From: Aquibium oceanicum
GTDB lineage: Bacteria > Pseudomonadota > Alphaproteobacteria > Rhizobiales > Rhizobiaceae
Assembly: GCF_001889605.1 (NCBI RefSeq)
Contig: NZ_CP018171.1
Span: 1,882,501-1,946,500, forward strand
Reading direction: 5' to 3'
DNA length: 64,000 nucleotides
In this document: piece by piece, positions 36,787 to 57,909 of the stretch
Position numbering within the stretch: position 1 is the first letter of the stretch
How the letters are laid out: every line of letters begins with the position of its first letter
The notes under the pieces: model-generated
What the model saw: only the letters and a program-made list of their open reading frames with translations
What the model was told of the DNA's origin: nothing
Database searches by the model: none
Made by a program: the position numbers and the translations under genes

Positions 36787-36862
36787 GCAGCCGCGCGGCT
36801 CCGCCATCCGGGCCGGTTGCCGGCCCTCCCGGTGGCAACGGTTTTTTCCCTGCTTCGATCAA

Positions 36863-36890
36863 TGAACTCAAAGACTAGTCTTTCGGTTCA
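36863..36890. promoter_or_regulatory. 28-bp inverted repeat in the GntR promoter region, autoregulatory operator candidate
   Basis: An inner perfect 14-bp palindrome AAAGACTAGTCTTT is flanked by further arms TGAAC and GTTCA (12 of 14 bases in each arm match). It lies 62 bases before the assumed GTG start of the GntR gene, so it may be where that regulator binds its own promoter. It does not match the repeats seen in the 13-gene operon promoters. Confidence 0.5.
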
Positions 36891-36951
36891 CCTGATACAC
36901 CTCGCCGTGCTAGCAGAGATCTACAGAGGGAAATCAGGGACGAGAGCATAC

Positions 36952-37671
36952 GTGAGCCTCAACAAGAGCAACATATCGCGCTACGTGCAGCTTGCGACGC
37001 TCTTCCGGCGCAAGATCGAGATCGGCACGTGGCAACTGGGTCAGCAGATCCCCACGGTCGACATGCTCGCGGCGGAATTCGACGTGGCGCGCGCGACCAT
37101 CCGCCAGGCGCTGTCCATCCTGGAAAGCGACGGTCTCATCGAACGCCACCGGGCCAAGGGTACCTTCGTGACCTTCCGCCCACAGGAAGCGCTCTGGTGC
37201 CAGGTCGAGACGAACTGGGCGGGACTGCTCAACGCGCGCGAAGGAGCCACGATCGAGGTGCTGGCGCGTGGCGAATCGGCCGACGTGCAGGGCCTGGTGC
37301 ACCAGATCGGCGAACGCGCGCCGTCTTACCTGCACTTCCGGCGCCGCCATTGGCGCAACGATTCGCCCTTCATGATCGGCGAGGTCTACATCGACAAACG
37401 GCTCGAGCAGCGCATAACGGACGAGGCTCTGCGCACGAAGACCTCGATGCGCCTCATCGCCGACGTGGCAGGCGTGGAGGTGACGGACGCGCGCCAGACG
37501 CTGACCATCGGGACGGCGGACGCCGAGATCGCCGAACTCCTCCATCTTCCCTTCAACGCGCCGGTCGCCGTGGTGCACCGCTCGGCCATCGACGCCAGCG
37601 GCACGCTGGTGTTCGTCGGCGTCGCAACCTATCGCGGCGACGTGGTCCGGCTCGACTTCAAACTTCGCTGA
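36952..37671 (+). CDS. GntR-family (HutC/UTRA) transcriptional regulator
   Basis: This 239-aa regulator has the winged helix-turn-helix (LATLFRRKIEIGTWQLGQQI, DMLAAEFDVARATIRQALSI, LESDGLIERHRAKGTFVTFRP) and a C-terminal UTRA ligand-binding domain (SYLHFRRRHWRNDSPFMIGE). It is convergent with the TRAP/hydratase cluster, only 17 bases between stops, and is the only regulator near it, so it is the likely controller of that cluster. GTG at 36952 (VSLNKSNISRYVQLA) is the chosen start, as family members have about 240 aa; the longer frame from 36817 would add 45 implausible residues, part of which overlaps the operator region. Confidence 0.85.
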   Translation: MSLNKSNISRYVQLATLFRRKIEIGTWQLGQQIPTVDMLAAEFDVARATIRQALSILESDGLIERHRAKGTFVTFRPQEALWCQVETNWAGLLNAREGATIEVLARGESADVQGLVHQIGERAPSYLHFRRRHWRNDSPFMIGEVYIDKRLEQRITDEALRTKTSMRLIADVAGVEVTDARQTLTIGTADAEIAELLHLPFNAPVAVVHRSAIDASGTLVFVGVATYRGDVVRLDFKLR

Positions 37672-37688: not shown

Positions 37689-38189
37689 CTATTCCTCGCG
37701 GATGACGGCCGGCTTGCGGAAGCGTGCGCCGGCGACAAGGTCCACCACGCAGCTCACGGCCGCGAGCGTGCATCCCGCCGCGAGCGCGATCTTGGCCGGG
37801 TAGACCGGAAACTGCACGATGCCCGAGGTGTACTCACCGACCCGCCAGGACTGCATGGCATTGCCCCAGCCGCGCCATGCCAGCGCCGTGAAGAAGCAGA
37901 GCATGAGAAGCAGCGTCAGCGTGTCGCTCAGCCGCTGCCCGAAGCGCGGCATGGCATCGTAGGCGATGTCGACGCTGATGTAGGAGCGGTTCAGGTGTAC
38001 CATGCCCAGCCCAAGGAAGACCGCCACCACCATCAGGGTCTGGGTCGCCTCGAACACGCCGGCGATGGGTCGCTGGAAGATGAGGGTGACGATGATGTCT
38101 GCCCCGCCGAGCAGCGTGATCGCCAGGATGGCGAGCCCGCCGATGAAGAGGGTTACCCTGTTGATGCCGACATAGAGCTTCCGGAGCAC
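37689..38189 (-). CDS. TRAP transporter small membrane subunit (DctQ)
   Basis: This 166-aa DctQ protein has four hydrophobic helices (for example LFIGGLAILAITLLGGADII and FEATQTLMVVAVFLGLGMVH). It belongs to the second TRAP system in this window and is the last gene of the operon, after DctM. It stabilises the DctM channel. Its stop is 17 bases from the stop of the convergent GntR gene, with no obvious terminator in between, so readthrough between the two transcripts is possible. Confidence 0.9.
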   Translation of the reverse strand: MLRKLYVGINRVTLFIGGLAILAITLLGGADIIVTLIFQRPIAGVFEATQTLMVVAVFLGLGMVHLNRSYISVDIAYDAMPRFGQRLSDTLTLLLMLCFFTALAWRGWGNAMQSWRVGEYTSGIVQFPVYPAKIALAAGCTLAAVSCVVDLVAGARFRKPAVIREE

Positions 38190-38199
38190 CGGCGCCTCC

Positions 38200-39513
38200 C
38201 TAGTAGCGCATGTTGTTGGGGATCCACATCACGATGTCCGGGAACATGATGAAGGTGATCAGGATCGCCACGTTGAGCAGCACGAACGGCAGGATGCCGC
38301 GCACGATGTCCTCGATCCGGAGCATGCCCTCGGACGCCCCGACGGTGGCGAAGAGGTTGAGGCCCACCGGCGGCGTGATCGCGCCGATCTCGATGATGAT
38401 GATGACCAGGATACCGAAGAAGATCGGGTCGATACCGGCTGCCACGATGATCGGATAGACGAAGGGGATGGTCACGAGCTGCAGCGACAGGCCTTCCATG
38501 AAGCAGCCCAGAACGACGTAGATCATGCCCAGGATGATGAGCAGCATCGTTGGCGACAGCTGCAGCGCCTCGGTAAAGTCGACGACGCCGGTGACGAAGC
38601 CGCTCAACACCAGCATGCGCGAATAGATCATGCCGCCGATCACGATGATGAAGAGCATCGCCGTTGTTTCGGCCGAGCGCATGAGCGTCATGCCCAGCAT
38701 GCTCATGGTGAGGCGGCGGCGGAGGGCGATGATCACCAGCGCGCCGAAGGCGCCGGCGGCCCCGGCAGCGGACGGCGAGAAGTAGCCGCCATAGATGCCG
38801 GTCATGATGAACAGGAAGAGGAGCAGGATCGACCAGGTGTTTCCGAGCGCGCCCCACCGTTCGGCGCGTGACGCCTTCGGGCGGTCCGCCGGCGCGAGCT
38901 TCGGATTGAACCGCACCATCGCCCAGACCATGATGCAGTAGCCGAGCGCGGTGATGATGCCCGGTACGATTCCGGCGATCATCAGCTTGCCGATCGATTG
39001 CTCGGTGAGGATGCCGTAGACCACCATGCCGATGCTCGGCGGAATGAGGGCGGCCAGCGTTCCCGCCGAGGCGATGCACGCTCCCGAAAGCGAACGCGAG
39101 TAGCCGAGCCTCAGCATCTCGGGCAGCGACAACCGAGTGAACACCGTGGCGTTCACCAGCGGCGAGCCGGAGATGGCGGCAAAGCCCGTGGCGCCGCTGA
39201 TGGTGGCGAGGTAGAGGCCGCCGCGCAGGTGGCCGAGCCAACGGTCGGCGGCCGTGTAGAGTTCCGTCGCCATGCCGCTCGCCATGGCCAGGTTGCCCAT
39301 GAACAGGAATGTGGGAAGCACCGCGAAGGCGTAGTTGGCCGTGATGGAGTAGGAGACGCTGTAGAGCTGGCCCAGCGCGAGCATCTCCCCGCCGATCAGG
39401 TAGAGCCCGGCAATTCCGGCCGTCGCCAGCGCGATCGCGACTGGAACGCCAAGGATCATCAGCACGAGCATCACGAGCGTGAATCCCGCGGCGATGGACA
39501 GCGGATCTGACAT
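38200..39513 (-). CDS. TRAP transporter large membrane subunit (DctM)
   Basis: This 437-aa DctM protein has about 12 membrane helices and blocks PTFLFMGNLAMASGMATELY, GATGFAAISGSPLVNATVFT, LAALIPPSIGMVVYGILTEQ and ITPPVGLNLFATVGASEGML. It lies 10 bases before dctQ and about 110 bases after dctP on the minus strand. Order in the operon is P-M-Q. It would carry the solute captured by the DctP at 39624-40634 across the inner membrane with sodium. Confidence 0.93.
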   Translation of the reverse strand: MSDPLSIAAGFTLVMLVLMILGVPVAIALATAGIAGLYLIGGEMLALGQLYSVSYSITANYAFAVLPTFLFMGNLAMASGMATELYTAADRWLGHLRGGLYLATISGATGFAAISGSPLVNATVFTRLSLPEMLRLGYSRSLSGACIASAGTLAALIPPSIGMVVYGILTEQSIGKLMIAGIVPGIITALGYCIMVWAMVRFNPKLAPADRPKASRAERWGALGNTWSILLLFLFIMTGIYGGYFSPSAAGAAGAFGALVIIALRRRLTMSMLGMTLMRSAETTAMLFIIVIGGMIYSRMLVLSGFVTGVVDFTEALQLSPTMLLIILGMIYVVLGCFMEGLSLQLVTIPFVYPIIVAAGIDPIFFGILVIIIIEIGAITPPVGLNLFATVGASEGMLRIEDIVRGILPFVLLNVAILITFIMFPDIVMWIPNNMRY

Positions 39514-39623
39514 CGACGGTTCCCGGATCTTCGAAACAACGGCGGGCAGCGCGCGGCGCGCTGCCCGGCACCAGGCTGGGCGTCAGGGCGTCCGGACGGA
39601 GCCGGGCGCCGTGACGGTCACGC

Positions 39624-40634
39624 TCAACGAAGCTCTTTCCACTTCGCCACGACCGAGGAGGCCTCGTCGCCCATGCCCTTGTCGGCCATCATCTTCGACC
39701 AGACGTCGAGCATGTCGGGCATCATCTCCTCGAGCTTGTCCTGCTCGGGGAAGGGAAGCACCTCCACGCCGTTTTCCTTCAGCGTGGCGAGCGACTTGTC
39801 GTTGGCTGCGGATGTCACTTCTTCGTCAAAGGCCTCGGCTTCCTTCTGAACGTCGGTGATGAGCTTCTGCACCGACGGGTCTAGGCTGTTCCACTTGTCG
39901 AGGTTCATGACGCTCATATGCGCCACGATGGGTCCGAAGGTGATCTCGGAGGCGTACTTGGCGACCTCATACAGGCGGTTCGACACCAGGAAGTCGTAGG
40001 GCAGGATGATGCAGTCGATCGTGCCGCGCTGCATGGACTCGTAGAACTCGCCCGGAAGCACGGTCACGGGCGTTGCGCCCAGCGTGTTGAGCACGATGGG
40101 GAAGTAGTCTCCCTGGCTGCGGATCTTGCGGCCCTTGAAATCCTCGATGGTACGCAGGGGCTGCGTGCACAGCATGTGGTATTCGTTGAACTGCGCGAAC
40201 CGCATGACGTGGAGCTTGTTCTCGTCGGCTTCTTCCTTCAGCGCCGGAATGTCGGCGAGCAGGGCGTTGCCGATCTGAATCGCCGCGGACGAGTTCGGAT
40301 AGGAGAACGGCGCCGAGCTCAGCGGTGCGAAGAAGGGCAGGTTGGCCGCGTACCAGCTCGGCGTCAGCGCGCCGGCATCGAGGGCGCCGGTCGAGATCAG
40401 GTCGAACAGCTCGGCGGGCGATCCCGCCGCGCCGGCCCAGAACATCTGGAATGTCACCTTGCCGTCTGAGCGCTTGGCGATTTCCTTCGCGGCCCAGTCA
40501 TCGGCCAGCGAACTGGTCGATGTCTGCGAAACGGAATGCCCGAACCGGATGTTGGTCTCCGGATAGTCCTGTGCCTGGGCGGCCGCCGTCCACACGACGG
40601 TTCCCGCGAGTATCATTGTCAGTTTCGTCAGCAT
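39624..40634 (-). CDS. TRAP transporter solute-binding protein (DctP)
   Basis: This 336-aa periplasmic binding protein has a signal peptide (MLTKLTMILAGTVVWTAAAQ, cleavage after AQA) and the DctP family blocks RSDGKVTFQMFWAGAAGSPA, FKGRKIRSQGDYFPIVLNTL (with the Arg expected to bind the substrate carboxylate), ESMQRGTIDCIILPYDFLVS and the C-terminal helical region ending in VVAKWKELR. RBS GGGAGG precedes the ATG. Upstream lies a promoter with an inverted repeat in the spacer. The substrate is likely an organic acid, possibly a dicarboxylate. Confidence 0.92.
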   Translation of the reverse strand: MLTKLTMILAGTVVWTAAAQAQDYPETNIRFGHSVSQTSTSSLADDWAAKEIAKRSDGKVTFQMFWAGAAGSPAELFDLISTGALDAGALTPSWYAANLPFFAPLSSAPFSYPNSSAAIQIGNALLADIPALKEEADENKLHVMRFAQFNEYHMLCTQPLRTIEDFKGRKIRSQGDYFPIVLNTLGATPVTVLPGEFYESMQRGTIDCIILPYDFLVSNRLYEVAKYASEITFGPIVAHMSVMNLDKWNSLDPSVQKLITDVQKEAEAFDEEVTSAANDKSLATLKENGVEVLPFPEQDKLEEMMPDMLDVWSKMMADKGMGDEASSVVAKWKELR

Positions 40635-40745
40635 GTATTCCTCCCGATGCTGAGTTGCGAATTAACGGTCCATGTTTGCGTAGCGTGTCGGGGATCGCCC
40701 GCCAATCGCCTGCTCTATGCGCCGACTGCAAAGGTTCTTTGCAGC

Positions 40746-40774
40746 GAATAGGTTAGTTTTATAACCTTTATCAA
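40746..40774 (-). promoter_or_regulatory. Promoter with 18-bp operator in the spacer, upstream of the TRAP genes
   Basis: On the minus strand TTGATA (40769-40774) and CTATTC (40746-40751) are 17 bases apart, a standard sigma-70-type spacing. The spacer and edges hold the inverted repeat AGGTTAGTTTTATAACCT (40750-40767), with perfect 6-base arms. A bound protein would block polymerase. The repeat resembles one upstream of the GST gene (50550-50567): 12 of 18 bases are the same. Confidence 0.6.
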
Positions 40775-40800
40775 TCGGTAACATGACCTTTTCACCACCG

Positions 40801-41454
40801 TCAAGCAGCGGGGTCGGAACCGCCGCCAGCGGCGGCACTTTCCCGTGCCGCCCGAAGCTCTTCCATCAGGGCCGGAAGCCGCTCCCTGGCCCTGGCTTCC
40901 AGCTGGTCGTAGCCATTGTTGCCATGCGCATCGATGCCCACGGTGAGCGGCCCCAGGCCCTCCACCCGCATTTTCACCAGCCGATAGTGCGTGACGAGAT
41001 CGGACCAGCCGACGCCGGTCACCTCTTTGATCGCGTCCGTGTGGAGCGTCGCGCCTCCGCCGAGAATGGATAGGTAGACGCAGCCTACCTCCTGCATGGC
41101 GCGGGCGCATTCGGCGTCGAGCCCGCCCTTGCCGCACACGATGCGCAGGCCGTAATGCCGGATGATCTTCGGCATCAGGGGGTTGAAGCGGGTGCTGGTC
41201 GTGGGATTGATGTAGACGATCTCGAAGCCGTGGTCTGTGTCCCGGCTGTAGCTCGGCAGGTGAAAGAAGCCGGCGCCTTCGAGAGGGAAGGGCAACTCGC
41301 GCTTTCCTTCCATCGCCTCGATGATGCGCTTGTGCGTCGGCAGTCCGCCCGTCGCGACGATCTCGCCGTCCACGGTGACGAGGTCGCCAAGCCGCAGCCC
41401 GCGGATCGCTTCCACGTCGACCGGCAGTGTCAGGTGATGCGTCGCCATCGTCAC
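40801..41454 (-). CDS. Class I fumarase/tartrate-dehydratase-like beta subunit
   Basis: This 217-aa protein is the C-terminal-half/beta-type subunit of iron-sulfur class I hydro-lyases (FumA/B C-domain, TtdB). Blocks: LRLGDLVTVDGEIVATGGLP, GFEIVYINPTTSTRFNPLMP, RIVCGKGGLDAECARAMQEV, LGPLTVGIDAHGNNGY. It is divergent from fumarase at the RDAAH motif (here GGLPTHKR), so the substrate may differ from fumarate. It overlaps the alpha subunit by 4 bases (ATGA), forming a split two-gene enzyme. The reaction is expected to be addition or removal of water on a dicarboxylate or tartrate-like acid. Confidence 0.85.
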   Translation of the reverse strand: MTMATHHLTLPVDVEAIRGLRLGDLVTVDGEIVATGGLPTHKRIIEAMEGKRELPFPLEGAGFFHLPSYSRDTDHGFEIVYINPTTSTRFNPLMPKIIRHYGLRIVCGKGGLDAECARAMQEVGCVYLSILGGGATLHTDAIKEVTGVGWSDLVTHYRLVKMRVEGLGPLTVGIDAHGNNGYDQLEARARERLPALMEELRAARESAAAGGGSDPAA

Positions 41455-42320
41455 TCGATCCGCTCGATGCGTCCGTCATTGTAGAGACGGGCGCGGGTTC
41501 GCCGGTTGATCCAGCAGTTGAAACACACTGCCACGGGCGTGAAGCCGTGACCGGAGGCATATTCGATGTGGATGGCGAGCGCGGTGGTGTCGCCGCCAGT
41601 GCCCATCGGGCCGAAGCCGAGCTTGTTCGTGGCCTTGAGGAGCCGCTCCTCCATCGCCGCCAGCACGGGCTCCGAACTCGGTGTGCCAAGTGGCCGCAGC
41701 GTCGCGAGCTTGGCGATCTTGGTGCAGTAGTCGAAGGTCCCGCCGATGCCGACGCCGATCGTGACCGGAGGGCACTGCTGTGCGGCGGTCTTGACGATGA
41801 CGTCGAGGACGTAGGCCTCGATCTCCTCCAGCGTCGGGAAGCTGAAGATTTCCAGCGACGCCCAGCGGCCCGACCCAAGCGCCTTGGGCGCGCAGGTGAT
41901 GTCGATGTAGTCGGCACCGTCGATCATGTCCCAGCTCACCACCGGCATGTCCTTGCCGGCGTAGCTCCGCTCGTTGGTCAACGGGTTGGTGACGTGCTTC
42001 AGGAGCGGCGGCTGGATGGTCTCGACCAGATGCGCGAATCCGTCGCTGATCGCCCGCTTCACGTCGCCCTCGAAGCGCGCCTGGGTACCCACCTTGATGA
42101 AGTAGACCGGCACGCCGGAGTCCGAGCAGACGAATCGATCCGTATTCTCGGCCCGGTCGGCACTGCGCCGCATCATCGAGAGCACCTTGCGCGCGCTCTC
42201 GTTGGTCTCGGCCGCGGCCGCACGGTCCAGCGCCTCCTTTGCGTCGTCCGGGATGCGCTTCAGCGACCATTCGTAGAGGTCGGCGGTGAGTGTCTTCACG
42301 GCCTCGTAAGTGATTGCCAT
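41451..42320 (-). CDS. Class I fumarase/tartrate-dehydratase-like alpha subunit
   Basis: This 289-aa protein is the alpha or N-terminal-half subunit with the 4Fe-4S cluster. The three conserved cysteine contexts are present: VCSDSGVPVYFIKVG (matching CxDTG), QQCPPVTIGVGIGG, and CFNCWINRR after GPMGTGGDTTALAIHIEYAS. The cluster is therefore probably intact, unlike many paralogues that have lost it. With the beta subunit it would hydrate or dehydrate a dicarboxylate (fumarate, tartrate, mesaconate and dimethylmaleate-type acids are processed in this superfamily). It is coupled to its neighbours: the dehydrogenase upstream ends 3 bases before its ATG. Confidence 0.88.
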   Translation of the reverse strand: MAITYEAVKTLTADLYEWSLKRIPDDAKEALDRAAAAETNESARKVLSMMRRSADRAENTDRFVCSDSGVPVYFIKVGTQARFEGDVKRAISDGFAHLVETIQPPLLKHVTNPLTNERSYAGKDMPVVSWDMIDGADYIDITCAPKALGSGRWASLEIFSFPTLEEIEAYVLDVIVKTAAQQCPPVTIGVGIGGTFDYCTKIAKLATLRPLGTPSSEPVLAAMEERLLKATNKLGFGPMGTGGDTTALAIHIEYASGHGFTPVAVCFNCWINRRTRARLYNDGRIERIE

Positions 42321-42323
42321 GTC

Positions 42324-43259
42324 TCAGCCCTTCCCGGAATCGACCGCTGCGTCGCGCACGGGCCGGCCGGCCCGCAGGTCGTCGGCGGCCTGCGCCAGCG
42401 TGTTGGCGATGCCGTAGCGCGTCTCGCGCGTCACGGCCGCGTAGTGCGGTGCGAGCACCACGGTCTCGAAGCCCGCGAAGCGCGGATCGATAGACGGCTC
42501 GGCATCGAAGACGTCGAGCCCCGCACCGCCGATCGCCTTCTTTTCCAGCGCCGCGATCAGGGCTTCCTGGTCCACCACGCTGCCGCGCGATACGTTGATC
42601 AGGATGCCGTCCGGACCCAGACGTTCGAGCACGGACTGGCCGACGATGCGGTGCGTATCCGGCCCGCCCGGACAGGACAGAACCAGCACGTCGCACCGTT
42701 CGGCGAGATCGCCGATCGCCGGCACGTAGCCGTAGGGCAGGTCCGGCTTCTCGCGCGGCCCGGTATAGAGCACGCTCATGCCGATGCCGGCGGAGCGCCG
42801 CGCGATCGTCTGGCCGATCTTGCCGAGCCCGACGATGCCGAGCGTGCGGTCGAAGACGCGTCGGGACGGGGTCATGCGTTCCGTCGCCCAGCGCCCGGCG
42901 CGTACGAACCGGTCCGCCTCCGCGATCCGCCGCGACACGGCGTAGATCAGGCCGATGGCGAAATCGGCGGTGTCGTCGGTCACCTCGTCGGGCGTATGCC
43001 GCACCACGATGCCGCGGCGCCTGGCTTCCGCAAGGTCGATGTTCTCGAGCCCGGTGCCGTTGCACAGCAGCAGGCGCAGGTCGGGAAACTGGTCGTAGAG
43101 CGCGGTATCGGCGCCGGCGATGCTCGTGGTCACCGCGACGTCGAACCCGTCGCGGGCGTCTTCGCCGCGCTTCACCTCGACCAGCTCGTTGCCGCGCGAC
43201 AGCACCTCGCGCAGTTCCGGCGGAATGGCCGCGACGACGGCGATACGGTTGGTACTCAT
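42324..43259 (-). CDS. D-isomer-specific 2-hydroxyacid dehydrogenase
   Basis: This 311-aa NAD(P)-dependent dehydrogenase has the Rossmann fingerprint LGIVGLGKIGQTIARRSAGI and the catalytic triad of the family: Arg in INVSRGSVVDQEALIAAL, Glu in FDAEPSIDP, and His in VVLAPHYAAVT. It would reduce a 2-keto acid to a D-2-hydroxy acid or oxidise the reverse. In this operon it may supply the keto/hydroxy acid exchange next to the two dehydratases. It is one of two such dehydrogenases in the island (the other at 52228-53196). Confidence 0.9.
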   Translation of the reverse strand: MSTNRIAVVAAIPPELREVLSRGNELVEVKRGEDARDGFDVAVTTSIAGADTALYDQFPDLRLLLCNGTGLENIDLAEARRRGIVVRHTPDEVTDDTADFAIGLIYAVSRRIAEADRFVRAGRWATERMTPSRRVFDRTLGIVGLGKIGQTIARRSAGIGMSVLYTGPREKPDLPYGYVPAIGDLAERCDVLVLSCPGGPDTHRIVGQSVLERLGPDGILINVSRGSVVDQEALIAALEKKAIGGAGLDVFDAEPSIDPRFAGFETVVLAPHYAAVTRETRYGIANTLAQAADDLRAGRPVRDAAVDSGKG

Positions 43260-43269
43260 CTTACGTTCC

Positions 43270-43782
43270 TCACAGACCGGCCGCCGAAACGCGTTCCTTC
43301 AGCGCCGGCGCCAGGCCGCCCAGCCGCCACACCTGCAGCATGCTTTCGGCATAGGGCCGGAACCGCCGCTCCTCGCCGGTCGCCAGATTGCGCGCCACGC
43401 CCGACACGAGATCGACCTCCAGCTGGTCACCCGTTCCTGCGATCTGCGTGATGCCGGGGCAGGGCACGATTGGCAGGCCGTTGTTCAACCCCTTGCGGAT
43501 GAAGGCGGAATCCGTCGATTCCACCACGCAGGCGCGGATGCCGGATTCGCGCATGGCCACGCAGGCATGCGGATGGCTGTGGTGGCCGAAATTGCGCCCC
43601 GCCACGACGATGTCTCCTTCGCCGACCTTCTGCGGGAAATCCGGGTCCAGCAGCACGAAGAGCATCGCCTTCAGCGCCGGGATGTCGAAGCTGCCGAGGT
43701 CGGGCACCTGCGAATACTGGATGATGCCGTTGTCGGCGCTGACATTGTCGCCGAAAGCCCACACGCGTCCGGTGATCGTCAT
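43270..43782 (-). CDS. Isopropylmalate-dehydratase small-subunit-like (aconitase swivel) protein with altered active-site loop
   Basis: This 170-aa protein is the swivelling-domain subunit of the aconitase superfamily (LeuD-like). It keeps the general pattern TGRVWAFGDNVSADNGIIQY near the start and GDIVVAGRNFG in the middle. The usual IPMD loop, which reads N-F-G-C-G-S-S-R-E-H-A, is here NFGHHSHPHACVAM, one residue shorter and lacking the Ser-Arg pair used for substrate binding. Thus this is an aconitase-type hydro-lyase of changed specificity, not a leucine enzyme. It overlaps the large subunit gene by 4 bases (ATGA), giving a two-gene enzyme. Confidence 0.82.
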   Translation of the reverse strand: MTITGRVWAFGDNVSADNGIIQYSQVPDLGSFDIPALKAMLFVLLDPDFPQKVGEGDIVVAGRNFGHHSHPHACVAMRESGIRACVVESTDSAFIRKGLNNGLPIVPCPGITQIAGTGDQLEVDLVSGVARNLATGEERRFRPYAESMLQVWRLGGLAPALKERVSAAGL

Positions 43783-45068
43783 GCCGCGTCCCTCCGCAGC
43801 GCGGGATCGCCGCGCGGGTCGACGATCGCGCCGGCGAGCGCCGACGCGGCGACGGTGATCGGGCTGGCGAGATAGGCGCGCGCCAGCCGGCTGCCGTTGC
43901 GGCCGTGATAGTTCATCTGGTGCGTCGAGATCGACACCTCACCGTCGTTCAGCACGCCCTCGTAACCCCAGCAGGTGGTGCAGCCGGGCGCCAGGATGGT
44001 CGCGCCGGCTTCGGCGAGGATCGAGAGAAGGCCCTCGCGGCCCGCCTGCGCGTAAATCTCGCGGCTGCCGGGCGTGACGTAGAAGGTGACGTGACTGGCG
44101 ATGCGCCGTCCGCGCAGGATCGCCGCTGCCGCGCGAAGATCGTCCATGCGCCCGTTGGCGCAGGTGCCGATCGCCGCCTGGTCGATGCGCAGGCCCGCCA
44201 CTTCGCCGACCGGCGACACCGTGTGGAGCTCCGGCGGCACGGTGACCAGCGGCTCGAGCGCGCCGAGGTCGAACGATGCCTCGTAGGCATATTCGGCATC
44301 TGCGTCCGCCTCGAAAACCTCGAAAGGCCGGCCGTCCGCGCGCGACCGCGCATAGGCGAGTGCCGCCTCGTCCACCGGCATCAACGCGGTGTCGGGCCCG
44401 GCGTGGTAGGTGCAGGCGAGAAGCGTCTGGCGCTCGTCCAGCGACAGTCCCGCAACGCCATCGCCGCCATATTCGATGCAGCCCTGGCTGAGCAGGTCCG
44501 TTTCGGCATAGTCGCGTATGATCGCCTGGGCGAGATCGCGGATGTGTACGCCTTCGGCGAGCCTGCCCGTCAGGGTGAAGCGGATCGGCCGCGGCACCAC
44601 CATCCAGTTCTCGTTCAGCACCGATGTGACGACGACCTCGGTGGAAATCGCGATGTTCAGCGCGCCCACCACGCCGATCGAGGCGATGTTGGGCTCGTCG
44701 GAAAAGACCAGCGTGCCGGGGCGCGCGAATCCCTGCTCCACAAGCACCTGATGGCGCAGGCCCGAGCCGGGCCCGAAATAGTTGGCGCCGTGCTTTTCGG
44801 CGAAGTCGCGCATCTCGCCGTGGTTGCGGTGGTAGGCCGACCCCATGCCGGCGGCGGTGGTGTGGTCGACGACGAGCACCAGCTTTTCGGGATGCGCCAG
44901 CCGCGTCACGCCGGCCTGTTCCATGATGCGCTTGCGCGCTGGCCAGGAAATGTCCTGGCAGCACGTGTAGTCCGGCGTCACCGTCACGTATTCGCCAGGC
45001 TCGACGGTTTCCCGTCCGGCGGCGCGCGCGATGATCTTCTGGACGACAGACTGTCCCATTCTCATCAT
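43779..45068 (-). CDS. Isopropylmalate-dehydratase large-subunit-like (aconitase-family) hydro-lyase
   Basis: This 429-aa protein is a LeuC/aconitase-like catalytic subunit. The Fe-S cysteines are present: one in GTCANGRMDDLRAAAAILR and two in ILAPGCTTCWGY (CxxC). The start QSVVQKIIARAAGRETVEPG and HTTAAGMGSAYHRNHGEMRD with FGPGSGLRHQVLVEQGFARP are typical of the single-subunit-type 3-isopropylmalate/homoaconitate/dimethylmaleate hydratases. Function: reversible hydration of a branched or alkyl-substituted dicarboxylic acid. The ATG overlaps the aldehyde dehydrogenase stop (ATGA). Confidence 0.88.
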   Translation of the reverse strand: MMRMGQSVVQKIIARAAGRETVEPGEYVTVTPDYTCCQDISWPARKRIMEQAGVTRLAHPEKLVLVVDHTTAAGMGSAYHRNHGEMRDFAEKHGANYFGPGSGLRHQVLVEQGFARPGTLVFSDEPNIASIGVVGALNIAISTEVVVTSVLNENWMVVPRPIRFTLTGRLAEGVHIRDLAQAIIRDYAETDLLSQGCIEYGGDGVAGLSLDERQTLLACTYHAGPDTALMPVDEAALAYARSRADGRPFEVFEADADAEYAYEASFDLGALEPLVTVPPELHTVSPVGEVAGLRIDQAAIGTCANGRMDDLRAAAAILRGRRIASHVTFYVTPGSREIYAQAGREGLLSILAEAGATILAPGCTTCWGYEGVLNDGEVSISTHQMNYHGRNGSRLARAYLASPITVAASALAGAIVDPRGDPALRRDAA

Positions 45069-46498
45069 GCCATCGTGTGGGAGACGAACTTGGTGACGAG
45101 GAAGGCGTCCATCGCCTCGATGCCGCCCTCCGAGCCGTAGCCGCTGTCCTTCACCCCGCCATAGGGGATCTCGGGGAAGGCGATGCCGACCGCGTTGATC
45201 GACATCATTCCGGTCTCGACGTTCGCCGCGATCCGGCTCGCCAGTTTTGCGGACTTTGTGAAGGCGTAGGCCGCGAGGCCGTAGTCGAGGCGGTTGGCCT
45301 CCTCGATCGCCTCGTCGATGCCGGAAACCGGCCGCATCAGGGCAAGCGGTCCGAACGGCTCCTCGTTCATGACGCGCGCCTCCAGCGGCACGTCGGTCAT
45401 CACCGTCGGTTCGAAGAAGTTGCCGACATTGCCGATGCGCTTGCCGCCGGTGCGGATCTTGCCGCCGTGGGAGACCGCGTCCGCGATCAGCCCTTCCATG
45501 GCTTCCAGCCGTCGCACGTTGGCGAGCGGCCCCATGACCGTGCCTTCCTTCGAACCGTCGCCGACCTTCACCGCCGCGGCCAGCTGCGTGAACGTCTCCA
45601 CGAAGGGCTCGTAGATTTCCTCTTCGATCAGGAATCGCGTCGGCGAGGTGCAGACCTGGCCGACGTTGCGGTACTTCACGCCCACCATCAGCTTGGCCAC
45701 CGGCTCGATGTCGACATCCTTTGCGACGATGACCGGCGCGTGGCCACCGAGCTCCATGGTGATCGGCTTCATGTGGCGGCCCGCCATGGCCGCGAGATGC
45801 TTGCCCACCGCGGTTGAGCCGGTGAAGGAGATTTTGCGGATCGTCGGGTGCGGTATCAGGTATTCCGAGATTTCCGACGGAACGCCGAAGACAAGCGACA
45901 GGACGCCCGTCGGCAGCCCCGCGTCGGCCAGCGCCTGCACCAGGAAGGCGCAGGAACTCGGCGTCTCCTCCGGTCCCTTCAGGATCACCGTGCAGCCCGC
46001 CGCGAGCGCGGCGCCCACCTTGCGGGCTGCCTGGCCCATGCCGAAATTCCACGGCACGAAGCCGGCGACGGGGCCGATCGCCTCCTTGAAGGCGAGCTGG
46101 TGCACGCCTTCGGCGCGGGCCGGGACGATGCGTCCGTAGGCGCGGCGCGCCTCCTCGGCGAACCAGTCGAAGGATTCGGCGGTGGCATTCACCTCGTAGC
46201 GCGCCTCGAAAAGCGTCTTGCCCTGCTGTTCCGTCAGGACCGGCGCGATCTCGTCGATGCGCTCGCGAAGGAGCTCTGCGGCGCGGCGAAGCACGCGGCC
46301 GCGCTCGACCGGCGAGGTGTTCTTCCAGCTCCTGAAGGTGGAGCCAGCGCCCTTGAGTGCGATGTCGAGATCGGCGGTCTCGGCGACAGCAACCGAGCCG
46401 GCCGTCTCGCCGGTCGCCGGGTTGGTCAGCGGAAGGCTCCGTCCGCCGGAGCCCGCGACCCATTTGCCATCGAGAAAAAGAAGGACGTCGGCGGTCAT
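45065..46498 (-). CDS. NAD(P)-dependent aldehyde dehydrogenase
   Basis: This 477-aa aldehyde dehydrogenase has the catalytic Cys in NVGQVCTSPTRFLIEEE, the Glu in MELGGHAPVIVAKDVDIEP, cofactor blocks VAGFVPWNFGMGQAARKVGA and SFTGSTAVGKHLA, and a normal overall length (about 480 aa). The family type is that of succinate-semialdehyde/glutarate-semialdehyde dehydrogenases (NAD-ALDH), so it likely oxidises a carboxy-aldehyde to a dicarboxylate. RBS GGAGACC is upstream of the ATG, inside the end of the GMC gene. It lies between a GMC oxidoreductase and the hydratases, as the step after alcohol oxidation would require. Confidence 0.92.
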   Translation of the reverse strand: MTADVLLFLDGKWVAGSGGRSLPLTNPATGETAGSVAVAETADLDIALKGAGSTFRSWKNTSPVERGRVLRRAAELLRERIDEIAPVLTEQQGKTLFEARYEVNATAESFDWFAEEARRAYGRIVPARAEGVHQLAFKEAIGPVAGFVPWNFGMGQAARKVGAALAAGCTVILKGPEETPSSCAFLVQALADAGLPTGVLSLVFGVPSEISEYLIPHPTIRKISFTGSTAVGKHLAAMAGRHMKPITMELGGHAPVIVAKDVDIEPVAKLMVGVKYRNVGQVCTSPTRFLIEEEIYEPFVETFTQLAAAVKVGDGSKEGTVMGPLANVRRLEAMEGLIADAVSHGGKIRTGGKRIGNVGNFFEPTVMTDVPLEARVMNEEPFGPLALMRPVSGIDEAIEEANRLDYGLAAYAFTKSAKLASRIAANVETGMMSINAVGIAFPEIPYGGVKDSGYGSEGGIEAMDAFLVTKFVSHTMA

Positions 46499-48264
46499 GG
46501 CATGGTCTCCTGCTGCAGGCCGGCCGGCGCGGCGCGGCTTTCCGACCGGATGAGGTCGGCGATGCGCTCGGCCAGCATGAATGTCGGTATGTTCGTATTG
46601 GCGCACGGAACGGTCGGCATCAGCGATGCATCGCCGATACGCAGTCCCGGAACGCCGTGGACGCGGCCGTCGCTCGCGGTGACCGCGGCGGGATCGTCCG
46701 CGCGGCCCATGCGGCAGGTGCCCACGCAGTGCCAGACCCCCACGATCGCCTTGTGAAGATAGGCGTCGAGCGCCGCGTCGTCGGCAAGCAGTTCGCGGAT
46801 GTCGTAGGGGGCTATGAACCTGCGGATCAGCGCGCCGCGCGCGAATCCGGCGAAGTCGAGGACGCGAGCGAACACCGCCGTCTGAAAGGCGTTCCACTGT
46901 CCGGGCCGCGAAACCTGCCGCACCCGGTCGGAAAAGATGGTCGGGAAGACCTCGGCACGAACGGCGTCGAGCGCCGGGTCGAGCGCCACGCTCGCCACCC
47001 GGCGGAAGCCGTCGCGCATGCGCTGCAGGTCGCGCTGGTCCGAGAGCAGCCGGAAATCGACATCCGGCAGCTTGTCCGCCTCGGGCGAGGCGATCGCCAC
47101 ATGCCCGGTGGAATAGGACTTGTTGATCCACAGATAATAGGTGCCCAACTGCTCGCCGACGTCGTGCCAGGCGGAGCGGGCGAGCACGGCCATGTGCATG
47201 TCCGTTTCCGGACATCCCTCAAGGCCCGAGGAAAAGCGGTAATGCACCTGCGTGTGATGCCGGCGCGAATCCGAGTGCCGGTTGCCCGGCCGGATGAAGC
47301 AGGAGATGCCGAGCGCCGGATGTTCCTGAAGGTTTTGTCCAACGCCGGCGATGTCGCGCACGACGGGCACACCGGTGCGCGTCAGCAAATCGGCGGGGCC
47401 GAAGCCGGAGCGCTGTAGCAACGCCGGCGTGTTGATCGCGCCGCAACAGACGATCGTCTCGCGCGCCGCGATCCTGACGGGGCCGTCGGGTCCGGCGATC
47501 TCCGCGCCCGTCACCGTGCCTGCGTCCTGCATCAGCCGGTTGACGCTTCTGCCGGTCACCACGACCAGATTGGGACGGCGGCGAACCTCCGGCGTCAGGT
47601 AGCACACTGCCGCCGAGGCACGTTCGGCGCGCTCGCTGATGGTTGTCGTCACACGCATGACGCCGTCGCCCCAGTCGCCGTTCTGGTCCTCCACGGTGGG
47701 AACGCCACGGGCGAGCAGCATGTCGCGCGTGCCGCGCACGAAGCCGCAGAAGGTCGCCGGGTCCGGCCGGCTGATCGGCACCGGCCCGTCGGCACCGTGC
47801 AGATCGCCCGAGACGTCGAGGTCGCGTTCGAGCTTGCGGAAATAGGGCAGGGTGGAGGCCCAGTTCCATCCTTCCGCGCCGAGCGCTTCCCACTCGTCGT
47901 AATCGGCCGGCGCGCCGCGGTTGCCGAGCATGCCGTTGATCGCCGAGCCGCCGCCCAGCACGCGCGCCTGCTCGTACTTCGCCGCCGGGCGCGGCGCGTC
48001 GGGAACGGTCGGCACCGCGCCAAACCGCGCCATCAGGCCGTCGAAGAAGAATTCGCGCGTGAAGAATGCCCGGCTCGGATTTCCCGAGCGGATGTCGGCC
48101 GGCTGGCTCTCCTCGGTCAGGTCCGGGCCAGCTTCCACGAGCAGTACCCGCACGTCCGGGCTTTCGGTCAACCGCGCCGCAAGCACGCAGCCCGACGTGC
48201 CGCCGCCGACGATCAGGTAGTCCGGCAGGCCGCCCTGGACGAGCATGTCGGCCGCGGTCGTCAT
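46495..48264 (-). CDS. GMC-family FAD oxidoreductase (choline dehydrogenase/alcohol dehydrogenase-like)
   Basis: This 589-aa flavoprotein has the GMC dinucleotide motif DYLIVGGGTSGCVLAARLTE near residue 16-35, the second motif (YEQARVLGGGSAINGMLGNR), and the C-terminal active site HCVGTCRMG and DASLMPTVPCANTNIPTF with the catalytic His/Asn positions. It probably oxidises a primary alcohol or similar group to an aldehyde, the step before the ALDH next in the operon. Overlaps of 4 bases (ATGA) on both sides tie it into the operon. A second GMC gene lies at 50579-52201. Confidence 0.92.
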   Translation of the reverse strand: MTTAADMLVQGGLPDYLIVGGGTSGCVLAARLTESPDVRVLLVEAGPDLTEESQPADIRSGNPSRAFFTREFFFDGLMARFGAVPTVPDAPRPAAKYEQARVLGGGSAINGMLGNRGAPADYDEWEALGAEGWNWASTLPYFRKLERDLDVSGDLHGADGPVPISRPDPATFCGFVRGTRDMLLARGVPTVEDQNGDWGDGVMRVTTTISERAERASAAVCYLTPEVRRRPNLVVVTGRSVNRLMQDAGTVTGAEIAGPDGPVRIAARETIVCCGAINTPALLQRSGFGPADLLTRTGVPVVRDIAGVGQNLQEHPALGISCFIRPGNRHSDSRRHHTQVHYRFSSGLEGCPETDMHMAVLARSAWHDVGEQLGTYYLWINKSYSTGHVAIASPEADKLPDVDFRLLSDQRDLQRMRDGFRRVASVALDPALDAVRAEVFPTIFSDRVRQVSRPGQWNAFQTAVFARVLDFAGFARGALIRRFIAPYDIRELLADDAALDAYLHKAIVGVWHCVGTCRMGRADDPAAVTASDGRVHGVPGLRIGDASLMPTVPCANTNIPTFMLAERIADLIRSESRAAPAGLQQETMP

Positions 48265-49160
48265 GCCGTCGCCCCGAAACCGTAGAGGGATGCCGGATTG
48301 TCCACCAGGATGCGACGCCGCAGCGCCGCGTCCGGTGTCCATTCGGCGAAGACGTCGAGCAGATGCCCGACGTCGGGCGACTTGTCGTACATGCGCACGA
48401 ACGGCCAGTCCGAGCCCCACATCAACCTGTCGGGGTTCGCCTCAGTCAGCGCCTCGTGGAATGGCCGCTGGCTTTCGTATCCCGGCGTATCGGTCGAGTT
48501 GCGGCACAGCGACAGCTTTATCCAGATCAGCCCGTCCTTCAGCAGGTCGACCAGCGTCCGGAAGTCCGGATCGGCGGTGCCTTTCTCGATGTCGATGCCG
48601 GCCAGATGGTCGATGACGAAGGGCTGCCCCGCCTCGCGGATTGCCGACGGTAGCAGCTCGGCGAGCGTCGCGCACTTCGCCCAGACATGCGGCACGAAGC
48701 CGTGCTCCTTCATCCGGGGCGCCAGAAGCAGGTACTGGTCGAGCCCGATGCTTCCCTTATAGCGGCCGCCGCCGCGCGGGTCGCGCATCTCGTTGAAGCG
48801 CAATCCCTTGATGTTGGCGGTGGCCAGCCGCTCGAAGTCGGCGTCGTCCGCTTCGGCCGAAAGCACGCCGACCCCGCGCGTCGTCTCCGGCCGCTGGCCG
48901 AGCGCCTCCAGAAGGGCGGAATTGTCCGTGCCGTACGGGGCAGGCTGGATCAGCACCGCGCGTGACAGGCCGGCGCGGTCGAGCATCTCCTGATGCACCG
49001 GCGGCGGCGCGATCGGCGGCGCATAGCTCGACGGAGCGGGAACCGGAAAGCGGTCGAACGGCCCGAAGACGTGGGTGTGGGTATCGCAGGCACCGTCCGG
49101 CAGGGGCGAGGCGGGCGCCTCCGGCATGCGTGCCGCGACCGGCTCGAGGACGTCGCTCAC
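48261..49160 (-). CDS. Amidohydrolase_2 family, 2-pyrone-4,6-dicarboxylate lactonase-like
   Basis: This 299-aa TIM-barrel hydrolase has the metal motif CDTHTHVFGPFDRFPVPAPS near residue 25-44, very close in form to 2-pyrone-4,6-dicarboxylate lactonase (LigI), and later FVIDHLAGIDIEKGTADP and LMWGSDWPFVRMYD with the expected Asp. Members hydrolyse cyclic dicarboxylic lactones such as 2-pyrone-4,6-dicarboxylate or galactarolactone. Here it could open a lactone to a linear dicarboxylic acid before the dehydratases. The GTG start at 49160 overlaps the previous stop (GTGA). Confidence 0.85.
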   Translation of the reverse strand: MSDVLEPVAARMPEAPASPLPDGACDTHTHVFGPFDRFPVPAPSSYAPPIAPPPVHQEMLDRAGLSRAVLIQPAPYGTDNSALLEALGQRPETTRGVGVLSAEADDADFERLATANIKGLRFNEMRDPRGGGRYKGSIGLDQYLLLAPRMKEHGFVPHVWAKCATLAELLPSAIREAGQPFVIDHLAGIDIEKGTADPDFRTLVDLLKDGLIWIKLSLCRNSTDTPGYESQRPFHEALTEANPDRLMWGSDWPFVRMYDKSPDVGHLLDVFAEWTPDAALRRRILVDNPASLYGFGATA

Positions 49161-49825
49161 GAGGCGCTCCCGTCGGCCCGGCTCGTCGAGGCGGGGATCG
49201 CCGCCAGCCTCACGGGCAGACTGCCGTCCTCGGGGCAGGGGCCACCGAGTTCGAGCGGGGATTCGGCCCCGTCGGGCAGCGGAATGTGATGCGCGTTGAG
49301 CGTCATCGACACCAGCGTGTAGTAGCCGATCAGCGTGGTGAGCTCGACGACGCCGACTGCACCCCAACGGTTGCGGATCTTCCTGTAGGTCTCTTCCCCG
49401 ACCTGGCCGCAGATCTGCAGCTCGCGCGAGAACTCGTAGACCTCGGCATCGGCCTCGTCGTCGAAGTGCGGCGTCTCGCCGACCCGCAGGCTCTCCATGG
49501 CGGAGACGGGGAGGCCGGCCTTTTCCGCCGCGGCGGCATGCACGTGCCATTCGAGCTGGCTGTTCCAGCGCCGCGCGGTCACCAGGATCGCCAGTTCCGA
49601 CAGCCGGGGCGGCAGGCTGGTGTCGTAGCGCAGCATCGCGCCGAAGCGCTGCCAGGCGTCCGCGAGGTCGGGGCGGTGGAGCGCGGCGCGCAACGGGCCG
49701 ACCAGCACCCCGCGCGGTCCGGCGACGACGGCGTCGACAACCCGCCGCTGTTCGGGCGTCAGCCCCTCCTCGTCGGGAAAGGGAATTCGGCCCACGGTCG
49801 CGCCTTCGGGAGCCATGGAGGTCAC
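49157..49825 (-). CDS. Carboxymuconolactone decarboxylase-like protein
   Basis: This 222-aa protein has a CMD/AhpD-type helical domain with LPPRLSELAILVTARRWNSQ and LEWHVHAAAAEKAGLPVSAM. The CxxC needed for peroxidase activity is absent, so it is closer to decarboxylase-like members. Its length exceeds the classic 130-aa PcaC. It may act on a lactone or muconolactone-like intermediate, but many CMD-domain proteins are of unknown function. The start GTG (49825) overlaps the GST stop (GTGA); an ATG four codons further in is also possible. Confidence 0.75.
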   Translation of the reverse strand: MTSMAPEGATVGRIPFPDEEGLTPEQRRVVDAVVAGPRGVLVGPLRAALHRPDLADAWQRFGAMLRYDTSLPPRLSELAILVTARRWNSQLEWHVHAAAAEKAGLPVSAMESLRVGETPHFDDEADAEVYEFSRELQICGQVGEETYRKIRNRWGAVGVVELTTLIGYYTLVSMTLNAHHIPLPDGAESPLELGGPCPEDGSLPVRLAAIPASTSRADGSAS

Positions 49826-50493
49826 GCGAAGACCAGAGCCGGCCCGGCCGCCCACGGCACGTCGGGCGGTCCCTTGCCGTCGTCCCTGATGGCGGTGGCG
49901 TCGACCGAAGGACGGGTCTGGACCTCCTCGTACCACCGGGCGAGGTTCGGATTTCCCTCACGCCAGCGGCTTTCGGCAAAGCGGAAGTCCATCTGCCCGA
50001 GCGTGCAGACGAGCGAGACCTGGCCGATGCCGAACGGCTCGCTCGAAAGCGCGCCGGCTTCCTTGTCAAACATGGCGAAAGCGTGCCGCACCTTGGTGTC
50101 GAAGGCGTCGGTGAGCTTCTTGTACTGCGTGCCCTCGGGCCGGATGCGTTCGTTGCGCCACAGGAGAAGCACGTCCGTCAGCCCGTCGGCGAGCGCCTGC
50201 CAGCGCAACTGCCGGAAGCGGGCTTCCGTCTCGGCCGGGAACAGCCGGTGGCCGTCGTGCAGCCCGTCAAGGTACTCGCACACGACGCGCGAATCCGGCA
50301 GCGCGGTGCCGTCGTCCAGCACCAGCGTCGGAATCTTGCCGATCGGATTGTCGGGCAGCAGGTCCGGGTTTGGCGGACCGGCCATTGCCACGACCGTGCG
50401 GACGCATTCGACGCGGTCCAGAAGGCCGGTCTCGTGCAGGACGATCATGACCTTTCGCACGAAGGGCGATCGCGGCGACCAGTGCAGTTTCAT
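49822..50493 (-). CDS. Glutathione S-transferase family protein
   Basis: This 223-aa GST starts MKLHWSPRSPFVRKVMIVLH and shows IGKIPTLVLDDGTALPDSRV and VCEYLDGLHDGHRLFPAETE in the N-domain, followed by an all-helical C-domain (FRQLRWQALADGLTDVLLLW). It is the first gene of the 10-gene stretch down to fumarase beta. Plausible roles: isomerisation of a ring-cleavage product (maleylacetoacetate-isomerase-like) or detoxification of a reactive aldehyde. No further specificity is visible. The promoter region just upstream carries an inverted repeat. Confidence 0.87.
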   Translation of the reverse strand: MKLHWSPRSPFVRKVMIVLHETGLLDRVECVRTVVAMAGPPNPDLLPDNPIGKIPTLVLDDGTALPDSRVVCEYLDGLHDGHRLFPAETEARFRQLRWQALADGLTDVLLLWRNERIRPEGTQYKKLTDAFDTKVRHAFAMFDKEAGALSSEPFGIGQVSLVCTLGQMDFRFAESRWREGNPNLARWYEEVQTRPSVDATAIRDDGKGPPDVPWAAGPALVFA

Positions 50494-50546: not shown

Positions 50547-50570
50547 CAAATGTTAGAGCTATAGCATTTG
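50547..50570 (-). promoter_or_regulatory. 24-bp inverted repeat, operator candidate upstream of the GST-led operon
   Basis: The outer arms are CAAATG/CATTTG; the inner 18 bases read ATGTTAGAGCTATAGCAT (50550-50567). On the minus strand the right arm runs into TTTGACT, a possible -35 element. The inner 18 bases share 12 positions with the repeat upstream of dctP (40750-40767). It lies 54 bases before the GST start and is the strongest candidate site for the cluster's GntR regulator. Confidence 0.55.
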
Positions 50571-54749: not shown

Positions 54750-54753
54750 CGGA

Positions 54754-55953: not shown

Positions 55954-55990
55954 GTCATGCTCCTCCTGTTTCGTTGTCGTTTTCGGACTT

Positions 55991-57903: not shown

Positions 57904-57909
57904 CGCTCT

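Follow-up and report, generated by a model that had tools for sequence, protein, structure and literature searches.

A putative modular catabolic locus of Aquibium oceanicum with two iron-sulfur hydro-lyases whose canonical active sites are altered

The window analysed here is a stretch of 64,000 nucleotides from Aquibium oceanicum (contig NZ_CP018171.1, positions 1,882,501 to 1,946,500), and all coordinates below refer to it unless the handle of another locus precedes them. On its minus strand, from 50493 to 37689, lies a set of 13 open reading frames (ORFs) that begins with a glutathione S-transferase gene and ends with the small permease gene of a tripartite ATP-independent periplasmic (TRAP) transporter, and that includes two different iron-sulfur (Fe-S) hydro-lyases, one of the aconitase type and one of the fumarase type. 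All 13 ORFs of the initial annotation were found, and Pfam and NCBIfam matches agree with the family names it had given. In order from the 5' end the genes are:

49822..50493, minus strand: GST, glutathione S-transferase family, 223 amino acids (Pfam GST_N/GST_C)
49157..49825, minus strand: CMD, carboxymuconolactone-decarboxylase-family protein, 222 amino acids (PF02627, 25.6 bits, cut-off 23)
48261..49160, minus strand: AH, Amidohydro_2 lactonase-like protein, 299 amino acids (PF04909, 130.1 bits)
46495..48264, minus strand: GMC oxidoreductase, 589 amino acids (PF00732/PF05199)
45065..46498, minus strand: ALDH, aldehyde dehydrogenase, 477 amino acids (PF00171, 484 bits)
43779..45068, minus strand: ACNL, aconitase-superfamily large subunit with altered active site (PF00330, 232 bits)
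43270..43782, minus strand: ACNS, aconitase-superfamily small subunit, domain 4 (TIGR02087, 105 bits, cut-off 108.95)
42324..43259, minus strand: DHDH, D-2-hydroxyacid dehydrogenase, 311 amino acids (PF02826, 164 bits)
41451..42320, minus strand: FUMA, fumarase/tartrate-dehydratase-type alpha subunit (PF05681, 220 bits; TIGR00722, 197.7 bits, cut-off 100.65)
40801..41454, minus strand: FUMB, fumarase-type beta subunit (PF05683, 76.5 bits; TIGR00723, 120.7 bits, cut-off 145.15)
39624..40634, minus strand: DctP, TRAP solute-binding protein (NF037995, 118.7 bits, cut-off 50)
38200..39513, minus strand: DctM, TRAP large permease (TIGR00786, 286.1 bits, cut-off 268.45)
37689..38189, minus strand: DctQ, TRAP small permease (weak NF007374 match and position)

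No equivalog cut-off was reached by any of the 13 in the NCBIfam matches listed (up to 25 each for ALDH and ECH), and subfamily-level cut-offs were passed by FUMA, DctP and DctM and, in the operon upstream, by ECH. The best such model for ALDH is that of succinate-semialdehyde dehydrogenase (TIGR01780, 432.5 bits, cut-off 646); ACNS has no Pfam match at an E-value of 0.001, and CMD has no NCBIfam match and, by eye, no CxxC motif. The TRAP transporter is complete, with DctP, DctQ and DctM together, DctQ being called from its weak match and position. A simple coding filter based on GC content at third codon positions (GC3) was passed by 11 of the ORFs; AH and ACNL are outside its list because their ORFs extend a long way 5' of the likely starts. 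Of the 12 junctions, exactly seven are 4-base overlaps under the start codons adopted in this analysis, as had been stated (GST/CMD, CMD/AH, AH/GMC, GMC/ALDH, ALDH/ACNL, ACNL/ACNS and FUMA/FUMB), four of which are decided by the choice of start codon for CMD, AH, ACNL and FUMB; the remaining five are gaps of 10, 3, 166, 110 and 10 bases. The 166-base gap lies 5' of DctP, and the 110-base gap after it holds a strong hairpin, a perfect 12-base inverted repeat at 39543-39567 between DctP and DctM. The TRAP genes may therefore form a separate or attenuated unit, and the repeat is possibly an attenuator favouring the binding protein. An 85-base gap precedes GST, and scans for promoters and terminators gave no excess over shuffled sequences. 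Against a near relative, a Mesorhizobium metagenome-assembled genome (locus L004), the ratio of nonsynonymous to synonymous substitution rates (dN/dS) is 0.023-0.141 in the 11 of 13 genes compared, DctM and DctQ being left out since the L004 contig ends there; this is the range of purifying selection, and the lowest values belong to FUMA, FUMB, ALDH and ACNL.

Relatives of the locus were collected in several ways. A pattern-based scan of a collection of species genomes, which finds close relatives only, returned seven loci, of which six (L004-L009, 63-98% identity) share the aconitase-type pair of the window; the seventh, L010 (33% identity), turned out to be of the ordinary LeuCD type. Searched at an E-value of 1e-20, ACNS gave 12 matches in 397 genomes of the order, namely its own genome, one close relative (G056, 63%), seven proteins with the loop GHPHYP and three with SSREQA, and four matches in 398 genomes of the phylum, three of them with the GHPHYP loop besides that in its own genome. 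A more distant form is present on two Roseomonas plasmids (ACNS 49-52%, ACNL 60%). The sample thus consists of 10 clusters with this pair, hereafter ACN clusters, from Hyphomicrobiales and the Roseomonas plasmids; they amount to only about five lineages, because some are near relatives. The core of ACNL, ACNS, FUMA, FUMB and DHDH is complete in all 10. GST and CMD are both found in nine, neither being present in the 21 kb examined in the Aurantimonas cluster (L006); GST identity to the window is 95% in L004 and 49-62% in seven other clusters. Genes missing from L004 say little, since its contig is short; in the cluster-by-cluster comparison, DHDH and ECH were scored by the better of window and Devosia queries. 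That the genes act together, as the initial annotation had proposed, is supported by this core and by the recurrence of GMC, ALDH and TRAP genes beside it in G056; the argument it had drawn from the overlaps, that they make the set one pathway, is weak, and it is the comparison across clusters that bears out the conclusion. AH accompanies the core only in the window and L004.

Enzymes of the aconitase superfamily are a standard example of recruitment in which the active site has hardly changed. In the window, ACNL has DEPNIA in place of DSHTxx and HQMN in place of xNRN, and ACNS has the loop HHSHPHA in place of (C)GSSREHA and a second loop, SADNGIIQYSQ, with a two-residue insertion and no arginine. 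ACNL lies below the NCBIfam cut-offs listed at the level of isopropylmalate isomerase (IPMI) and homoaconitase (best score 351.7 against 385), and ACNS likewise falls short of its own. According to PMC8184944, 20 active-site residues are shared by the aconitases outside AcnX (so its legend; its text has over 15 of the 20 identical among them), Ser642 is the general base, Cys358, Cys421 and Cys424 are cluster ligands, and AcnX is treated as a branch that departs from the fixed active site. The three cysteines are kept as C303, C363 and C366 of ACNL, invariant in 10 large subunits, and the Asp100/His101 pair, which in aconitase serves the leaving hydroxide (for His101 the role is given in that paper), is also retained. 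The other residues of the 20-site list were mapped onto the pair through alignments; by this mapping about 10 of the 20 are kept (Q72, D100, H101, H147, C358, C421, C424, R452, D568 and one of S642/S643), the changes being D165E, S166P, H167N, N258A, E262H, N446Q and R447M, with no arginine at R580 and R644. The replacement residues are themselves invariant, H67, H68 and H70 in nine small subunits and E125, N127, H222 and Q384 in 10 large ones, and the small-subunit loop reads HHSHPHA in eight of eight close copies and HHNHVEV in the two Roseomonas copies. At the site of S642 the loop has a one-residue deletion; S69 of ACNS could substitute, although the two Roseomonas copies have Asn at this position.

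A class-wide survey of LeuD-type proteins covered the 30 best-scoring loci out of a far larger number of matches, which were spread over 121 of 142 genomes; besides the own locus, 23 have SSREHA or SSREQA, six have other loops and none has HHSHPHA. A tree of 43 large subunits separates the nine ACN-type members from the rest by a branch supported at 100/100, with the caveat, raised by the programme, that the long stems of the ACN-type and GHPHYP groups may attract each other. The AlphaFold2 model of ACNS has a mean confidence (pLDDT) of 92.1 and TM scores of 0.84-0.88 to the IPMI small-subunit chains of 3vba, by which ACNS is predicted to have the domain 4/IPMI small-subunit fold. The two Roseomonas records label the genes aconitase family protein, hypothetical protein and fumarate hydratase, labels by which metabolic models could be misled; with the small subunits (L031:13989-14528 and L032:13980-14513) given as hypothetical proteins, the pair goes unrecognised there as a dehydratase. 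The loop GHPHYP marks another divergent pair of the aconitase type, found at L025:8485-10291, L026:8421-10195 and L027:9921-11725, where it adjoins a metallo-beta-lactamase-fold protein (37-41% to the window gene at 58894-59799) and Liv ABC transporter genes; L025, the sole GHPHYP locus scanned, also has a FAD_binding_4 protein and a protein of the PEP-mutase/isocitrate-lyase family. A Paraburkholderia plasmid encodes an ACNS-like protein (L033:11977-12519, 36%, annotated hypothetical) with the loop GKAHTNA, adjoining a 3-keto-5-aminohexanoate cleavage protein gene.

The fumarase-type pair is altered in a comparable manner. FUMA has CSDSG for CQDTG and LLKH for LRxN, and FUMB has GLPTHKR in the region of ARD(x)AH. 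Against the 13 active-site residues listed for Leishmania (L. major) fumarase FH in PMC10602362, the pair shows Q134S, R173L and R421G, and the other 10 sites match by eye in the alignments. The Fe-S cysteines and the equivalents of D135, T467, T468, R471 and K491 are kept. Every member of the subfamily in the alignments (11 alpha rows, one of them partial, and 10 beta rows) lacks the canonical Q134, R173 and R421, and E. coli TtdAB and the single-chain fumarase of the same Aquibium genome keep all three. The equivalog cut-offs of L-tartrate dehydratase are missed by both subunits (alpha 142.3 against 365, beta 112.6 against 264). This subfamily is wider than the cluster, for it also occurs with other partners at a second site of the same genome and on Parasedimentitalea, Martelella, Mameliella and Paracoccus plasmids. 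All four plasmids share the alpha motifs, and the beta motif is unchanged in the three whose beta subunits were read. The second pair (L011:8553-10026, 60%/46%) lies 17 kb beyond the window, near MaoC, AMP-binding, FAA hydrolase and TRAP genes; it has no aconitase partner and a different context, and is thus not a duplicate of the cluster.

AH scores 154 bits on the model of 4-sulfomuconolactone hydrolase (NF042924), missing the equivalog cut-off of 500, and among structures it is nearest to 2-pyrone-4,6-dicarboxylate hydrolase (PDB 4d8l, 122.1 bits); its translation shows the HxH, His and Asp of the family motif. Outside the window and L004, AH is lacking in eight clusters; seven of these have an alpha/beta hydrolase resembling PcaD, the exception being L006, and each of the eight encodes a class III CoA-transferase (CaiB) and a flavin-reductase-like protein. 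Only the Devosia copies of hydrolase and CoA-transferase were scored, the former reaching 214.8 bits on 3-oxoadipate enol-lactonase PcaD (cut-off 255.85) and the latter 484.8 bits on succinate-glutarate CoA-transferase (cut-off 750). A Paracoccus cluster combines FUM, DHDH, GST, CMD, GntR, ECH, CaiB and PcaD-like genes near genes annotated as pcaF, pcaG and protocatechuate 3,4-dioxygenase beta, and Roseomonas haemaphysalidis has an intradiol dioxygenase gene about 22 kb from ACNS. A general link to intradiol dioxygenases did not hold up, since elsewhere these genes are far from the cluster (G000, 1.93 vs 3.62-3.96 Mb; G056, 3.07 vs 1.17 Mb; G878, 116 kb on one contig), on other contigs in five genomes, where the assembly gives no distance, or, on the R. 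marmotae plasmid, absent. From the set of PcaC, PcaD, CoA-transferase and thiolase, the window operon has a CMD-family protein only.

The remaining genes show how the locus is put together. In G056, genes near ACNL correspond to ALDH (68%), DctQ (62%), DctM (78%), DctP (62%) and GMC (57%) of the window in a different order, with the GMC homologue adjoining the TRAP genes; ACNS, TctA, DHDH and the flavin reductase of a version with a tripartite tricarboxylate transporter (TTT) lie about 10 kb from ACNL. TRAP, GMC and ALDH thus form one separable upper module, linked with the core in two lineages. Carriers vary, being of the TTT type in the Devosia, Oryzicola, Rhizobiaceae and G056 clusters, with ABC transporter genes nearby in Aurantimonas and TctC-type binding proteins in Roseomonas; TTT or ABC carriers are as expected of an anionic substrate. 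It is plausible that some strains import an acid directly and others make it from an alcohol.

The boundaries of the system should be drawn wider than the 13 genes, all of them real, to which the initial annotation had confined it: a regulator on the other strand belongs, and an operon upstream probably does. The features concerned are:

36817..37671, plus strand: GntR/HutC-type regulator, convergent with the operon (profile matches)
50547..50570, no strand: 24-base palindrome 5' of GST, candidate operator (12+12 bases, 83% complementary)
50579..52201, minus strand: GMC2, second GMC oxidoreductase, upstream operon (profile match)
52228..53196, minus strand: HADH2, second D-2-hydroxyacid dehydrogenase, upstream operon (profile match)
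53206..53979, minus strand: ECH, enoyl-CoA hydratase family, upstream operon (NF005073, 359.3 bits, cut-off 296)
53994..58845, minus strand: Liv-type ABC transporter (LivF, LivK-like binding protein, LivM, LivH, LivG), upstream operon

Homologues of the GntR protein align only from about 36930-36955, so that its true start is probably later than the TTG of the ORF. We take it to be part of the system because it recurs at 43-57% identity in seven of the nine other ACN clusters and, at 50%, in the Paracoccus cluster; it was not found in L031, and the L004 contig stops short of its position. The palindrome remains only a candidate GntR operator: in 16 other loci no match exceeded 16/24 outside L004, two at that level lying 5' of GntR in L006 and 5' of ECH in L066 and two others inside genes; shuffling the window three times produced 0, 2 and 0 matches of that level. 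The palindromes of 38 chosen upstream regions showed no clear common consensus. The upstream operon (58845-50579) probably serves the same pathway, because ECH recurs at 39-53% identity to the window protein in nine related clusters (L005, G056, L007-L009, L031, L032, L066 and L069), a Comamonas plasmid links ECH (48%) and HADH2 (47%) with GST, CMD and AH (41%) within 25 kb, without ACN and FUM genes and with an additional enolase-superfamily gene, and GMC2 adjoins GST in L004 too. For its ABC transporter, in which LivG and LivH were called by profile and LivF, LivK and LivM by eye from translations, membership is uncertain and the case weaker than for the rest. Divergent from the Liv genes lies a lactonase-like gene of the metallo-beta-lactamase fold (58894-59799; NF047979, 83.3 bits, cut-off 360). 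Elsewhere in the window are a 1048-residue ORF with a caspase-like domain (29927-33073; Peptidase_C14, 119.7 bits), beside which a metallophosphatase and AAA_23 pair (33038-36786) looks to us like SbcD/SbcC; another TRAP set with DctM (21019-22794) and DctP (22795-23817), followed by an MlrC-type M81 peptidase (24346-25800); and genes for a biotin carboxylase (5452-7422) and a carboxyltransferase (11777-13384) that stand apart, a Cache-domain histidine kinase gene (9114-10958) being among those between them.

From the observed gene content, conservation of the core, linkage of modules, retained Fe-S ligands and conserved change of the active sites, we propose that the locus is built of modules, has two altered hydro-lyases and serves the breakdown of a hydroxy acid or lactone that is small and soluble in water, a reading to which we give a probability of roughly 0.55; its intermediates most likely resemble those of the beta-ketoadipate pathway. 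We infer the reactions and their order from families and gene linkage. The TRAP transporter would import the compound, which GMC would oxidise from alcohol to aldehyde and ALDH to acid, as suggested by their families and by the recurrence of this module in G056. AH, or in most relatives the PcaD-like hydrolase, would open a lactone ring. The two hydro-lyases of the core would then remove or add water at hydroxyls, and DHDH would oxidise the D-2-hydroxy acid so formed, giving a 2-oxo acid. Auxiliary roles of the isomerase or decarboxylase type may fall to GST and CMD, ahead of CoA-dependent steps by ECH, and in relatives also by CaiB and a hydratase/dehydrogenase fusion, that would lead into central metabolism. 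Plain citraconate, mesaconate or fumarate chemistry is doubtful, because most of the carboxylate-holding groups are lost in both enzymes and the replacements are conserved. In our reading, the substrates would not be these ordinary dicarboxylates and would bear a neutral or differently placed group at one end, such as a lactone, keto or aldehyde group. A further and more tentative suggestion, which we hold at less than even odds, is that two new hydro-lyase subfamilies, with a histidine-rich loop (HHSHPHA/HHNHVEV) in place of SSRE in one of them, act one after the other in an undescribed alphaproteobacterial pathway, on substrates that do not carry the customary second carboxylate.

Three other explanations have been weighed against this proposal. 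The initial annotation had the set converting a lactone or alcohol to a branched or substituted C4-C6 dicarboxylate, with the two hydro-lyases acting on opposite stereoisomers, the aconitase type on the cis (citraconate-like) and the fumarase type on the trans (mesaconate-like) isomer. Both enzymes do belong to suitable families, most iron-dependent fumarases can hydrate mesaconate according to PMC4682846, TRAP and TTT carriers suit di-acids, and the Devosia CaiB scores 288.8 bits (cut-off 700) on succinyl-CoA:mesaconate CoA-transferase. Of that proposal the lactone chemistry stands, by way of AH and of the PcaD-like hydrolases where AH is lacking, but the branched dicarboxylates appear not to: in all clusters read, both enzymes have other residues in place of canonical-site arginines that would hold a dicarboxylate, profile scans recognised no citramalate or methylmalate lyase gene in the window cluster, and the lactonase, CMD and GMC would be left unexplained. 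We consider it distinctly unlikely. If instead all these genes were a chance juxtaposition of two or three unrelated pathways (TRAP-GMC-ALDH, AH-CMD-GST and ACN-FUM-DHDH), the modularity of the gene sets across clusters, the 166- and 110-base gaps flanking DctP and the confinement of AH to the window and L004 would find a ready account; but the seven overlaps span GST to FUMB, the TRAP-GMC-ALDH set adjoins the core in a second, distant lineage, and GST and CMD accompany it in nine of 10 clusters, and we regard such a composite as very improbable.

A lower pathway like that of beta-ketoadipate, acting on a hydroxylated or carboxylated muconolactone, would cast CMD as the analogue of PcaC and AH or the PcaD-like protein as the lactonase; the Fe-S enzymes and DHDH would take care of the additional hydroxyl, and CoA transfer and thiolysis would follow. 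The Devosia PcaD-like protein and CaiB, the annotated pca genes of Paracoccus, the dioxygenase gene of R. haemaphysalidis, the likeness of AH to lactone hydrolases and the enolase-superfamily gene of Comamonas speak for it. Given the distance or absence of intradiol genes in other records, the lack of a PcaD-like gene or thiolase in the window operon, and a nearest CaiB only about 36% alike over its length, it seems to us unlikely in this specific form. The preferred reading, that of a modular locus for a hydroxy acid or lactone, has its own difficulties. The clusters were located through ACN genes, so that it is the presence of partners that counts, and several are near relatives. In the window no CaiB, flavin reductase or PcaD-like gene adjoins the core; the best homologues in the same genome are at 2.98 Mb for the flavin reductase (53%) and 3.41 Mb for the CoA-transferase (52%), and a weaker flavin reductase (43%) sits 6 kb outside the window. 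Not every part is obligatory, since the 29 kb examined of the Paracoccus cluster contain no ACN pair and the 21 kb of L006 neither GST nor CMD. Retention of the catalytic serine 642 hinges on the placement of a single one-residue gap, and the ACNL model is poor (pLDDT 55.6, 8 alignment rows), for which reason it was used solely for a fold match to 4kp1 (TM 0.43). Finally, reading active sites from sequence is an indirect argument: a characterised class I fumarase with R173L exists according to PMC10602362, and R173L alone is thus not decisive.

If the more tentative suggestion is correct, the aconitase superfamily would have a further functional branch besides Acn/AcnD/IPMI/homoaconitase and AcnX. 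A second departure from the fixed active site, together with an altered fumarase-type partner in a conserved operon, would show how active sites are rebuilt, and the defined gene set would also offer a handle for finding the substrate. No description of such a cluster was found in the open-access literature searched, most subscription journals lying outside the search.

Comparison with known systems suggests known folds and families with what are apparently new subfamilies. The beta-ketoadipate pathway (PcaC, PcaD, CoA-transferase and PcaF) shares the CMD family with the window, a lactonase and CoA-transferase with its relatives and a thiolase with Paracoccus, but the cluster adds two Fe-S hydro-lyases, a D-2-hydroxyacid dehydrogenase and GST, and Paracoccus alone showed a dioxygenase gene beside it. 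The nearest models and structures of AH are those of 4-sulfomuconolactone hydrolase and 2-pyrone-4,6-dicarboxylate hydrolase (LigI); by its score AH is not the same enzyme as the former. With class I fumarase and L-tartrate dehydratase (FumA, TtdAB), FUMA and FUMB share the alpha and beta subunits, the Fe-S cysteines and five further residues, and differ at Q134, R173 and R421. With archaeal-type IPMI and homoaconitase (PDB 4kp1, 4nqy, 4kp2 and 3vba), the ACN pair has in common separate large and small subunits, three Fe-S cysteines, the small-subunit fold and the equivalents of D100, H101, H147 and R452; unlike them it keeps only about half of the 20 sites, has lost R447, R580 and R644, is changed at S166 and H167, bears the HHSHPHA loop and scores below the NCBIfam cut-offs listed. 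Aconitase X (cis-3-hydroxyproline or mevalonate-5-phosphate dehydratase), as described in PMC8184944, also has Glu for Asp165 and retains the catalytic serine, which in the ACN pair depends on gap placement; ACNL differs from it in keeping the three canonical cysteines and resembles LeuC much more closely, scoring only 19.6 bits on the AcnX Pfam model. Aconitase X offers a precedent for a changed substrate site within the aconitase superfamily.

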